Part shown: positions 5,646 through 9,082 of the stretch, piece by piece | Layout of the letters: each line of letters starts with the position of its first letter | Position numbering within the stretch: position 1 is the stretch's first letter | From: Bradyrhizobium sp. PSBB068 | GTDB lineage: Bacteria > Pseudomonadota > Alphaproteobacteria > Rhizobiales > Xanthobacteraceae | Direction of reading: 5' to 3' | DNA length: 64,000 nt | NCBI GenBank assembly: GCA_016839165.1 | Contig: CP069300.1 | Location: 2,170,001-2,234,000 of the forward strand | Made by a program: the position numbers and the translations under genes | Notes under the pieces: model-generated | Database searches by the model: none | Seen by the model: only the letters and a program-made list of their open reading frames with translations | What the model was told of the DNA's origin: nothing

Positions 5646-6063
5646 GGTCTCGCCATTGGTGAAATCCGGCGAAAATCTACGTGGGAAAGCCTTTAGGTTT
5701 GGTATCTTTTGAAACCGAATCTGCTCCGATGGAACCCGGTCATCACCCTTGTTTCGTAAGGGAAATCCGCTCGCCGATCGGGGGCGGGAGCGAGCGCGTC
5801 GGGGGCTTGCGCCGACGCCGGCTGCGCAACGGCGCTGGCGTGCCGGCAAAGCCTTGGTATGGTCGCGCAGCATGGCGCGAGTCCGCGAGAGTTTTCGCTA
5901 TTATGATACCGTTTGTCGAGCCTCCGGCGATTTTTCCTCCTTGGGATCGCCGACTGTGTCATAGGTCACACATGCGGTCCGCACATTGCCGTAATGTGAA
6001 GAATCTTGGCTCTCGCGTCGAACCACGCACCACCCCCCTCAGACCAACTTTGCGAGACGGCCA
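5646..6063. other. divergent intergenic region, diguanylate cyclase / second ECF sigma gene
   Basis: No gene is supported in these 418 bases; the overlapping frames are arginine-rich shadows. A possible ECF-type promoter sits at 5996-6023. An 11-base palindrome TGCGGTCCGCA lies just before it at about 5974-5984. Confidence 0.4.
5996..6023 (+). promoter_or_regulatory. possible ECF promoter of the sigma/anti-sigma/protease operon
   Basis: GTGAAG (5996-6001) and TCGAAC (6018-6023) are separated by 16 bases and lie about 40 bases before the TTG start. The -10-like TCGAA resembles RpoE-type elements. The -35 part is a weak match, so this is only a candidate. Confidence 0.22.
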
Positions 6064-6633
6064 TTGAGCGCGACACAGGCGGCTTCAGACGAGGTTCTGA
6101 TCGCTCGGATCGCTCAAGGCGACCGGCTCGCCATGCAGGTGCTGTACGGACGGCATCATGTCAGGGTGTACCGCTTCGGGCTTCGGCTCGTGCGGGACGA
6201 ACAGGTGGCGGAGGACCTCATCAGCGAGGTCTTTCTGGACGTGTGGCGTCAGGCGGGCAAGTTTGAGGGACGATCCGCCGTTTCAACCTGGCTTCTGGCG
6301 ATTACCCGGTTCAAGGCGTTGTCTTCGCTACGGCGAAGGAAAGACGCCGAACTGGACGATGAGGCCGCGAACGCGATCGAGGATACGTCCGACGATCCGG
6401 AAACGGTAGTGCAGAAGAAGGACACCGGCGCGACGCTGCGTAAGTGCCTGACGGGACTATCAGCGGAACACCGGGAGATCGTCGACCTTGTCTACTATCA
6501 CGAGAAATCCGTGGAAGACGTCGCTGAGATCGTCGGGATTCCGGAGAACACCGTGAAGACGCGCCTGTTCTATGCACGCAAGAAACTTGCCGAGTTGCTG
6601 AAGGCAGCCGGTGTCGAGCGAGGTTGGCCATGA
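6064..6633 (+). CDS. ECF-family RNA polymerase sigma factor (RpoE-like)
   Basis: A 189-residue protein from TTG 6064, preceded by GAGACGG; no better start lies upstream, and the next ATG would cut into region 2. Region 2 shows the EDLISEVFLDVWRQAGKFEG and STWLLAITRFKALSSLRRRK segments. Region 4 shows LSAEHREIVDLVYYHEKS followed by a PENTVKTRLFYARKKLAELL helix-turn-helix. The stop overlaps the start of the anti-sigma gene (ATGA, 6630-6633), so the two are translationally coupled. A secreted protease follows. The three genes look like one envelope-responsive operon; the stimulus is unknown. Confidence 0.92.
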   Translation: MSATQAASDEVLIARIAQGDRLAMQVLYGRHHVRVYRFGLRLVRDEQVAEDLISEVFLDVWRQAGKFEGRSAVSTWLLAITRFKALSSLRRRKDAELDDEAANAIEDTSDDPETVVQKKDTGATLRKCLTGLSAEHREIVDLVYYHEKSVEDVAEIVGIPENTVKTRLFYARKKLAELLKAAGVERGWP

Positions 6634-7385
6634 TGGCTGCGAGCAACAAGAAAGTGCAGGGTCAAGAACCTGACGATGTCGAGATGCTGCTGCCCTGGTA
6701 TGCGGCCGGCACGCTCAACGCGCGCGACGCGCGCCGCGTCGAGGATGCACTCGCTTCCGATCCGGAACTGGCCCGGCAATATGCCGTCATCCGCGACGAA
6801 TATGCCGAGACCATCGGCCTCAATGAGAGCCTCGGTGCGCCCTCGGCGCGCGCCATGCAGAAGCTGTTTGCCGCGATCGATGCCGAGCCGGAGCGCAAGC
6901 CGTCCGCAGGTGCACGCATGTCGGCCTCGATCTCGGAGTTCTTTTCCAAATTGTCGCCGCGGACGCTCGCCTGGTCGTCCAGCCTCGGCGCGCTCGTGGT
7001 GCTGTTGCAGGCGGGCGTGATCGGCGCGGTGCTGATGCGCAGCCCGCCCGCCTCGTTCCAGACCGCGTCGCTCGATGTCGCCGAACAACGCAGCGCGCCG
7101 AGTGCGGCCATTGCACCATCCAGCCCGGCACCCAGTGCGCCGATCACTCGCGACCTTGGTGCCAGCATATCGGCCGCGCCGACGCGGCTGTTGGTGCGCT
7201 TCACGCCGGATGCCCGAATCTCCGACATCACGTCGCTGCTCGACAATTACCAGGCCTCGATCGTCGACGGTAAGGCCGGCATGTTCCGATTGCAGTTCCG
7301 CGCGATGGACAAGGACGGCGTCGCGGCGCTGATCGCCCGTTTGCAGAGAGAGAAGATCGTCAGCCTCGCGGTGGAGACGCCGTAA
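6630..7385 (+). CDS. membrane anti-sigma factor with a periplasmic pro-domain-like C-terminus
   Basis: A 251-residue protein starting at the ATG that overlaps the sigma gene's stop. The N-terminal 80 residues form a short helical anti-sigma domain (EMLLPWYAAGTLN and ARRVEDALASDPELARQY). Next comes one transmembrane helix near residues 110-132 (SSLGALVVLLQAGVIGAVLM), then a Ser/Ala/Pro-rich linker. The C-terminal 70 residues (from RLLVRFTPDARISDI) have the beta-alpha-beta pattern of subtilisin propeptide/inhibitor-I9 domains. The next gene encodes a subtilisin-like protease with a comparable pro-region. Inference: it holds the sigma factor at the membrane and senses protease or envelope state through this outer domain. 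Confidence 0.85.
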   Translation: MMAASNKKVQGQEPDDVEMLLPWYAAGTLNARDARRVEDALASDPELARQYAVIRDEYAETIGLNESLGAPSARAMQKLFAAIDAEPERKPSAGARMSASISEFFSKLSPRTLAWSSSLGALVVLLQAGVIGAVLMRSPPASFQTASLDVAEQRSAPSAAIAPSSPAPSAPITRDLGASISAAPTRLLVRFTPDARISDITSLLDNYQASIVDGKAGMFRLQFRAMDKDGVAALIARLQREKIVSLAVETP

Positions 7386-7423
7386 AACAGGCGGCTGACG
7401 ATCTGCGCCGATTTGAGGTCATC

Positions 7424-9082
7424 ATGACCGCCAACGGCCGGACCCGATCAACGAACCGAGCGACCGTCGCGGCCGCGGCGTTGCTGCTGGTCTGTGTTGC
7501 CGGTTCGGCCTACGCCCAAAGTTTCATGCGATCACCGATCGGCGGCGGGGTCTCGGCTGGGCCGCGGATCAATCCGGGCATCGGCAGGCCCGGTGGCAGC
7601 GCCGCCGGCGGGCCGCCGCTCTCGGCGGACCGTGGCCCGCCTGCGTCCTGGACCGACGAGGGCCCACGATCGGGAATGCGACCGCCCGATGCACGCTACG
7701 CACCCCGCCTCTCCTCCGGCTGCGACAATGCTGACCGCGGCCAATGCGCCGACCGGCCGGTTGCCAGCAACGGCAGCGGCAAGGGCGCCGCGAGGAAGGG
7801 CAGGGCCGGCGGTGGCGGCATCCGCGCACAGGACGTGGCGGGCACGCGAACCGTGCCGAACGAACTCGTGGCGGAAATCGACGGCATCCTGACCGAGGCC
7901 CAAGCCGACGCGCTGGCGCGCCGCCACGGCCTGAGACGGATCGCCTCGCAGAACATCCCGCTGCTGGGGGCGACCATCGGCCTGTTCCGCATCGCCGGCA
8001 ATCGCTCGGCCGATGCCGTGAGCCGCGAATTCGCAAACGATGGCAGCGTCCGCTCGGTGCAGCCGAACTACCGGTACGCGCTGCAGGACCAGCGCGCGGC
8101 ATCAGGCGGCAATGATCCGGCGCAATATGCGCAGGCGAAGCTGCATCTGCCCGAGGCGCACAGGCTGGCGCGCGGGATGAATGTGACTATTGCCGTCATC
8201 GACTCCGGCATCGACGCAGCCCATCCGGAATTGGCCAACACCGTCGCGGATACATTTGATGCGCTCGGCAGCAAGGATGGCCCACATGCCCACGGCACCG
8301 CCATCGCCGGCGCAATTGCCGCGCGGGTCAGGCTGACGGGAAGCGCGCCGGAAGTGCGGATCCTGGCGATCCGCGCCTTTGGCGTGGTTGGCGGCGGCGC
8401 CGAGAGCACCTCCTATGTGATCCTCAGGAGCCTCGACTACGCGGTGGCGCATGGCGCGCAGATCGTGAACATGAGCTTTGCCGGGCCGAAAGACGCACTT
8501 GTCGGGCGCGCGGTGGCCGCCGCTGCGGCGAAGGACGTCATGCTGGTCGCCGCGGCCGGCAATGCCGGCCCGACATCGCCGCCGCTGTATCCGGCCGCTT
8601 ATCCCGACGTGATCGCGGTGAGCGGTATCGATGCCGGCGACCGACTGATGGCGGCGTCGAACCGCGGCAGCCATATCGCGCTGGCGGCGCCGGGCGCGGA
8701 CATCCTCGTGCCGGTGCCGGACGGCAAATATCAGCTGATGTCGGGCACTTCCTTTTCGGCCGCGTTCGTCAGCGGCATCGCGGCGCTGGTGCTGGAGCGT
8801 GGTCCGGCATTGAAGCCCGCCGAGGTGCGACGGATCCTGACCGGCACGGCCCGCGATCTCGGGGCGCCTGGACGCGACGATCTGTTCGGGGCCGGGGAGG
8901 CCGACGCGCTCGCCGCGGTGATGGCCGCGGCCAATGCTCCGGTTGCAGCGGCCACGGACAAACTGCCGCAGCCCGCGCCGACGCCGGACGGCAATAACAC
9001 TTCCGTGAGCCGCGCGTTGAATGAAGCCGCGCCCTCGATCGCATCGGAGTTTTCCGCTGCAAATCGCGGCGCCGCACGGTGA
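7424..9082 (+). CDS. secreted subtilisin-like S8 serine protease
   Basis: A 552-residue pre-pro-protease. A signal peptide ends near AYAQ (residues 29-32), then comes a Gly/Pro-rich segment, then a pro-domain-like region (about 145-220). The catalytic domain carries Asp260 (AVIDSGIDAAHPEL), His290 (HAHGTAIAG), the oxyanion Asn380 (AAGNAG) and Ser443 (SGTSFSAAFVSG), so the triad is complete. A low-complexity tail follows. The start has GAGG seven bases upstream. It lies 38 bases after the anti-sigma gene and is probably in the same operon. Expected location is periplasm or outside the cell; the substrate is unknown. Confidence 0.93.
   Translation: MTANGRTRSTNRATVAAAALLLVCVAGSAYAQSFMRSPIGGGVSAGPRINPGIGRPGGSAAGGPPLSADRGPPASWTDEGPRSGMRPPDARYAPRLSSGCDNADRGQCADRPVASNGSGKGAARKGRAGGGGIRAQDVAGTRTVPNELVAEIDGILTEAQADALARRHGLRRIASQNIPLLGATIGLFRIAGNRSADAVSREFANDGSVRSVQPNYRYALQDQRAASGGNDPAQYAQAKLHLPEAHRLARGMNVTIAVIDSGIDAAHPELANTVADTFDALGSKDGPHAHGTAIAGAIAARVRLTGSAPEVRILAIRAFGVVGGGAESTSYVILRSLDYAVAHGAQIVNMSFAGPKDALVGRAVAAAAAKDVMLVAAAGNAGPTSPPLYPAAYPDVIAVSGIDAGDRLMAASNRGSHIALAAPGADILVPVPDGKYQLMSGTSFSAAFVSGIAALVLERGPALKPAEVRRILTGTARDLGAPGRDDLFGAGEADALAAVMAAANAPVAAATDKLPQPAPTPDGNNTSVSRALNEAAPSIASEFSAANRGAAR

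Follow-up and report, generated by a model that had tools for sequence, protein, structure and literature searches.

A subtilase-propeptide-like domain in a membrane anti-sigma factor encoded beside a subtilase

What does a membrane anti-sigma factor sense when its outer domain resembles part of the protease encoded next to it? To our knowledge, the ligand of the sensor domain has yet to be named for many membrane anti-sigma factors. The question is raised by positions 6064 to 9082 of a 64,000-nucleotide stretch of DNA (the window) from Bradyrhizobium sp. PSBB068, a Bradyrhizobium-type genome of 7.67 Mb. Three plus-strand genes lie there in a row, encoding an extracytoplasmic function (ECF) sigma factor, an anti-sigma factor and an S8 subtilase. 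We found that, by predicted fold and profile comparison, the C-terminus of the anti-sigma factor is related to subtilase propeptides, and that the trio is conserved far beyond the genus. We tentatively read the operon as an envelope-stress switch in which the subtilase docks on the tethered domain and cuts the anti-sigma factor near the membrane.

An anti-sigma domain related to subtilase propeptides

The genes and the parts of their products discussed below are as follows.

6064 to 6633, plus strand: ECF sigma factor, 189 amino acids, TTG start (Pfam Sigma70_r2 and r4; NCBIfam PRK12515)
6630 to 7385, plus strand: anti-sigma factor, 251 amino acids (Pfam/NCBIfam anti-sigma similarity under cut-offs; ATGA coupling to sigma)
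6981 to 7037, plus strand: transmembrane segment of the anti-sigma factor, residues ~118-136 (hydropathy scan)
7056 to 7070, plus strand: motif FQTAS, anti-sigma residues 143-147, a candidate for the site that the protease recognizes or cleaves (conservation)
7170 to 7382, plus strand: propeptide-like extracytoplasmic domain, anti-sigma residues 181-251 (AlphaFold; hhalign; PF22148 on relatives)
7424 to 9082, plus strand: S8 subtilase, 552 amino acids (Pfam PF00082 Peptidase_S8, 1e-45)
7424 to 7516, plus strand: likely signal peptide, protease residues 1-31, ending in SAYA (read from the sequence by eye)
7841 to 8086, plus strand: protease propeptide, residues ~140-221
8177 to 8896, plus strand: subtilase catalytic domain (PF00082 match)

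The initial annotation had the three genes, their ATGA overlap, their coordinates and the peptides it quoted right. The sigma factor belongs to subfamily PRK12515 (347 bits against a curated NCBIfam cut-off of 236), and its stop codon (TGA, 6631-6633) overlaps the anti-sigma start (ATG at 6630) within ATGA 6630-6633. Its partner is a class I ECF anti-sigma factor, with an anti-sigma domain recognized by scores that fall below the curated cut-offs (including a weak zf-HC2 match, Pfam E 0.0025), one transmembrane segment and a gene coupled to that of an ECF sigma factor. Zinc-ligand cysteines are absent from the window protein; CxxC is present in distant anti-sigma relatives such as L216. The 70-residue periplasmic part described at the outset agrees with the folded domain of ~71 residues, but the extracytoplasmic part actually measures ~115 residues (137-251), comprising a linker and that domain.

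AlphaFold models the last 71 residues as a beta-alpha-beta-beta-alpha-beta fold (E-H-E-E-H-E, pLDDT 93.5), and a fold check of the protease propeptide returned the same fold type. The likeness first noticed between the anti-sigma C-terminus and the protease pro-domain thus held up in structure prediction, which gave a propeptide-type rather than an unrelated fold. It also held up in profile comparison. With hhalign, 54 anti-sigma C-domains matched 41 propeptides (7 of 48 rows having been removed beforehand as misaligned or cut) at a probability of 87.6% (P 3.5e-6, 64 columns), and further alignments reached 94.7% and 91.0%. Controls stayed low: the real score of 34.5 compares with 16.3 for the best of 200 column-shuffled alignments, the reversed alignment gave 0.27%, and domains of the same fold from the same genome (RAM and ACT) gave 0.2-7% only. 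Judged by these comparisons, the resemblance exceeds chance.

Searches with single models agree in part. The Pfam fervidolysin propeptide model PF22148 matched 16 of the 54 C-domains at E up to 1 (best 3.6e-5), and the runner-up family, SPOR, matched 10 (best 0.0019) when the 54 were scanned alone; the Pfam scan gave no PF22148 match for the window's own C-domain. Across 524 genomes at E up to 1e-3, matches outside anti-sigma factors comprised three subtilase propeptides or propeptide-like open reading frames (ORFs), a TusA and a small membrane protein that has the domain. Fold and profile are common to this domain and to subtilase propeptides of the PF22148 or Inhibitor I9 type. The setting differs: a propeptide precedes the subtilase catalytic domain in the same chain, but this domain is part of a membrane anti-sigma factor encoded by a separate gene, and it usually lacks the tail that reaches the active site.

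The neighbouring enzyme is an S8 peptidase, with a triad (D260, H290, S443) invariant in 31 aligned protease sequences. Its likely signal peptide suggests that it is probably exported. Residues 137-215 gave a Fervidolysin_NPro-like match of 17.8 bits in Pfam, where the cut-off is 21.

Partners of the domain across genomes

We surveyed 236 distinct domain-bearing anti-sigma factors, collected by searching with the anti-sigma factor and with the domain alone, and hence not a random sample. One false match (L366, a serine hydroxymethyltransferase by sequence) was left out, and loci L259 and L271 were removed, having matched no profile used. Within 3 kb, 207 of the 236 have an S8 gene or fragment, a count that includes broken or contig-cut genes such as those of L062, L065, L071 and L098. 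Seven have a C14 caspase-like peptidase, 16 have neither and six lie at a contig end. Conservation of the trio in other genomes, which the initial annotation had proposed to check, is thus borne out. Frequent occurrence of the anti-sigma gene without a protease neighbour, which it had named as counting against its idea, is not the rule, although the 16 loci with neither peptidase and the seven with C14 depart from the S8 pattern.

The association with S8 persists despite changes in gene order, the protease gene lying upstream of sigma in L051, L052, L129, L133, L135, L138, L145 and L150. Among the C14-paired loci, the peptidase gene is adjacent in L224, L230, L328, L330 and L346 and ~2-2.6 kb away in L220 and L228, in L220 on the opposite strand. 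All seven peptidases were confirmed by Pfam, and inspection by eye suggests a signal-peptide-like stretch in most. With the sigma profile used, no sigma gene turned up in L220, L225, L228, L230, L312 or L313. Of the anti-sigma relatives that lack the domain, four have no S8 gene in the fetched stretch.

The linker between membrane and domain carries FQTAS, in which T145 and A146 are at least 90% conserved in a 53-sequence alignment. A looser [FY]xTAS-like pattern is found in 171 of the 207 S8-paired anti-sigma factors and in none of the seven paired with C14; outside the Bradyrhizobium-type set it occurs in 93 of 128 S8-paired members. C14-paired members instead have an arginine in every juxtamembrane stretch (7/7), following T or V in five. 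Arginine or lysine by itself does not discriminate, being present in 182 of the 207 S8-paired members as well.

At the far end of the domain, the profile alignment stops at propeptide residue 76, and the last residue (77) of the subtilisin prosegment aligns with model residue 82, so that the window anti-sigma factor ends ~6 residues before the position aligned with the prosegment end. It therefore has no C-terminal tail reaching the active site. At most five residues follow the domain match in 193 of the 236 anti-sigma factors. A docking module without a plug would, we infer, fit substrate presentation better than inhibition.

Two kinds of unusual locus deserve mention. Small membrane proteins that have the domain and no anti-sigma domain are encoded at L220:2945-3358 and L228:3411-4082, both on the minus strand, near an anti-sigma factor, a sulfate permease and a C14 gene. 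L333 and L334 hold a sigma factor and a domain-bearing anti-sigma factor with a carbamoyl-phosphate synthase gene nearby; no protease was seen ~3.3-4 kb to either side.

Recruitment, output or inhibition

The best explanation we can offer is that the anti-sigma factor keeps the ECF sigma factor in the cytoplasm as one part of the envelope-stress switch, a scheme that we favour while holding it to be short of probable. The exported protease would lose its own propeptide and then dock on the membrane-tethered, propeptide-like domain. Because the active-site plug formed by the tail is usually missing here, the domain would position the enzyme instead of inhibiting it. The protease would cut the anti-sigma factor within the juxtamembrane [FY]xTAS-like motif, making the subtilase probably its site-1 protease; intramembrane and cytosolic proteolysis would then free the sigma factor, which would transcribe the operon itself together with a few envelope genes. 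Its extension to a Proteobacteria-wide class of anti-sigma factors is more tentative still. Here a tail-less, tethered propeptide would be a receptor that recruits the co-encoded protease, whose arrival or activation would be the signal, and the module would have been re-paired with caspase-like peptidases, the motif changing with the partner.

A further possibility, doubtful in our estimate and still to be taken seriously, is that the protease is merely a target of the sigma factor. The domain, derived from a propeptide, would then sense another protease, a folding intermediate or a small ligand and would no longer bind its neighbour. The pairing of seven loci with C14 peptidases suits this alternative, as does the constraint on the domain where the neighbouring protease is missing (below). 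So does S. meliloti, where RpoE6 activates the serine protease SMa0142 (PMC6180224), an S8 peptidase by our assignment, and the accompanying anti-sigma factor, whose gene we identified by its pSymA position, gave no match to the domain profile. The S. meliloti case also counts against docking and cleavage, and so does L232, which has a divergent S8 gene on the opposite strand beside a sigma/anti-sigma pair without the domain. Against a mere output stand the near-constant pairing with S8, which outlasts changes in gene order, and the specific sequence relation between both partners, as seen with hhalign against RAM and ACT.

Some loci have lost the protease, and what they show, together with the motif and co-variation results that follow, counts against docking and cleavage. 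In eleven Bradyrhizobium and Rhodopseudomonas loci, sigma factor, anti-sigma factor and domain are kept with no S8 gene; five retain S8 fragments only (L068, L075, L084, L100, L117) and six no S8 trace (L077, which is from B. macuxiense BR 10303, L090, L121, L122, L126, L127). Elsewhere in the genomes of protease-less loci we found just S8 proteins 34-41% identical or short matches, and in one genome no S8 at all. These searches covered 11 entries; two of them give identical coordinates and look like one genome, and the entry for L164 belongs to a locus cut by a contig end. A single distant S8 spans the propeptide as well as the catalytic region, with 34% identity over residues 161-504, and might stand in as partner. 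In two protease-less Rhodopseudomonas, dN/dS is 0.03 for the domain and 0.21 for the N-terminal part, by a simple pairwise estimate in which domain dS is high (1.24). Recently protease-less Bradyrhizobium pairs showed no clear relaxation of dN/dS, with few pairs and the same kind of simple method. As far as such comparisons go, this constraint without a protease speaks most strongly for a role of the domain that would go beyond the neighbouring protease.

The motif is likewise less tidy than docking and cleavage would have it. It survives in nine of these eleven loci; over all 16 protease-less loci it is retained in nine Bradyrhizobium and absent from two Rhodopseudomonas and five others. The juxtamembrane pattern was defined after inspecting the sequences, and its stricter form, [FY]xT[AL][SAG], occurs in 67 of the 128 S8-paired members outside the Bradyrhizobium-type set. 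Because the motif is less uniform outside that set, we slightly lowered our estimate for docking and cleavage and slightly raised that for a protease that is output only. Co-variation of the domain with the catalytic domain, beyond that with the sigma factor and the anti-sigma N-domain, is weak, with a partial r of 0.147 that 4 of 500 permutations also reached; the comparison value for the anti-sigma N-domain is 0.075 (43 of 500).

Protease genes are also broken or rearranged beside an intact anti-sigma gene in L065, L071, L098 and L119, and in L098 the sigma ORF is split too. As read from these genes, this is repeated protease decay.

Pro-domain mimicry as first proposed would make the protease a ligand that the domain captures or inhibits, with sigma release altered by occupancy instead of by cleavage; this now looks unlikely. 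In its favour, propeptides bind to their own enzyme and inhibit it, and the domain is homologous to propeptides. Stand-alone inhibitory relatives exist as well, namely ORF2 (PMC5638518) and a Plasmodium SUB1 propeptide-like inhibitor (PMC6993865). The kinship by fold and profile stands; the inhibitory reading is weakened because most members, the window protein among them, end before the tail by which propeptides inhibit.

A common ferredoxin-like fold without shared descent is very improbable. In its favour, propeptides rank no higher for the anti-sigma domain in Foldseek and VIA than ribosomal S6, ACT and Lrp-type domains do, and fold searches alone failed to separate these families. PDB sequence-profile searches found no propeptide with the anti-sigma domain (a further point against our reading) and only two weak subtilisin-type matches, E about 1, with the protease propeptide alignment. 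Against it, hhalign was specific (91-95% for propeptides, 0.2-7% for RAM and ACT), PF22148 matches 16 of the 54 domains, and the matches outside anti-sigma factors in the 524 genomes include three propeptides or propeptide-like ORFs.

Promoter, regulon and known systems

Two elements precede the sigma gene.

6018 to 6047, plus strand: predicted autoregulatory ECF promoter, TCGAACC-N17-GACCAA (upstream conservation)
5955 to 5970, no strand assigned: palindrome TGTG-N8-CACA, lying before the sigma promoter and shared by most of the 19 upstream sequences in the alignment; we take it to be CRP/FNR-like

None of the 19 upstream regions in the alignment, protease-less loci included, has lost the core TCGAACC-N17-GACC. 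The exact pattern TCGAACC-N17-GACCWA has 40 matches in 15 genomes against one for the reversed pattern, and 173 against 12 in 60 genomes. We examined 30 of the 40 as loci, running Pfam on one member per group and assigning the others by similarity. Thirteen precede a sigma gene, five, in as many genomes, a protein of ~315 amino acids (L409, L414, L419, L424 and L431; no Pfam match for L409, the one scanned) and three a DUF805-type protein. The others precede a DUF350 gene (2), a DUF898-type protein (2), a small membrane protein (2) and single cases (3, one a doubtful gene). The window's genome has a second exact match (L391, C1:5624143), before a DUF350 gene that is followed by a glutathionylspermidine-synthase-like gene. 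From these predicted targets, it looks like a small envelope-type regulon under the sigma factor.

Several known systems invite comparison. CalpL-CalpT-CalpS encodes a dedicated protease, anti-sigma factor and sigma factor together; it and Csx29-Csx30-CASP-sigma are cytosolic and CRISPR-triggered and are not known to have a propeptide-like domain. DegS is encoded away from its target, and RseA is not known to carry a propeptide-like module. Csx29-Csx30-CASP-sigma shares with the window a dedicated protease, anti-sigma and sigma factor encoded together, Csx29 being a TPR-CHAT protease (PMC10028731). RseA-DegS shares an extracytoplasmic protease that triggers destruction of a membrane anti-sigma factor, but its enzyme, DegS, belongs to the HtrA family and carries a PDZ domain (PMC10028731, PMC8103513). 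Subtilases are mentioned for ECF54, proposed to work without an anti-sigma factor (PMC8999054).

Closest in layout is RpoE6-EcfR6/SMa0142, an ECF sigma factor and anti-sigma factor beside a sigma-controlled S8 gene, an arrangement called widely conserved in ECF26 (PMC6180224). SMa0142 is 34% identical to the window protease over 254 aligned catalytic-region positions. The system differs in its divergent protease gene and in the ECF26 promoter, GGAATA/GT (PMC6180224), which the window's promoter does not resemble; membership of ECF26 was rejected on that ground. The layout of L232 resembles this arrangement. The initial annotation's remark that no example was known therefore calls for care: this sigma/serine-protease pair is published, though its anti-sigma factor gave no match to our domain profile. 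We found no description of a propeptide-like anti-sigma domain in the literature covered, which includes the available text of PMC7406223, PMC3420878 and PMC8195603 and excludes the 2021 ECF re-classification. The sigma/subtilase neighbourhood is thus already known; the propeptide-like sensor and its pairing with two protease types were not found in print.

The sensor's likely origin names a likely ligand, the adjoining protease, and thereby makes the signalling step directly testable. If the switch is real, a module whose usual work is to aid folding and to inhibit, the propeptide, would have become a docking receptor for signalling, and many uncharacterised sigma/anti-sigma/subtilase operons would gain a testable function.

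Aeromonas sobria ORF2 (PDB 3wqb) is likewise a separately encoded S8 chaperone adjoining its S8 protease, ASP, and acting in trans, but it inhibits via its own C-terminal end, and the available text of PMC5638518 describes no membrane tether or transcription link. L348:3931-4344 (minus strand) encodes a 137-residue propeptide-like ORF adjoining an S8 gene (PF22148, 20.5 bits against a cut-off of 21), perhaps a chaperone of the ORF2 type, perhaps one piece of a split protease.

Two other identities for the window protease were set aside. As a type VII secretion mycosin (TIGR03921) it scores 191 bits against a cut-off of 278.75. As a component of anti-phage defence it gave only generic subtilase and IetS models in PADLOC, which returned nothing for the sigma or anti-sigma factor; both C14 proteins submitted matched the PADLOC caspase model.

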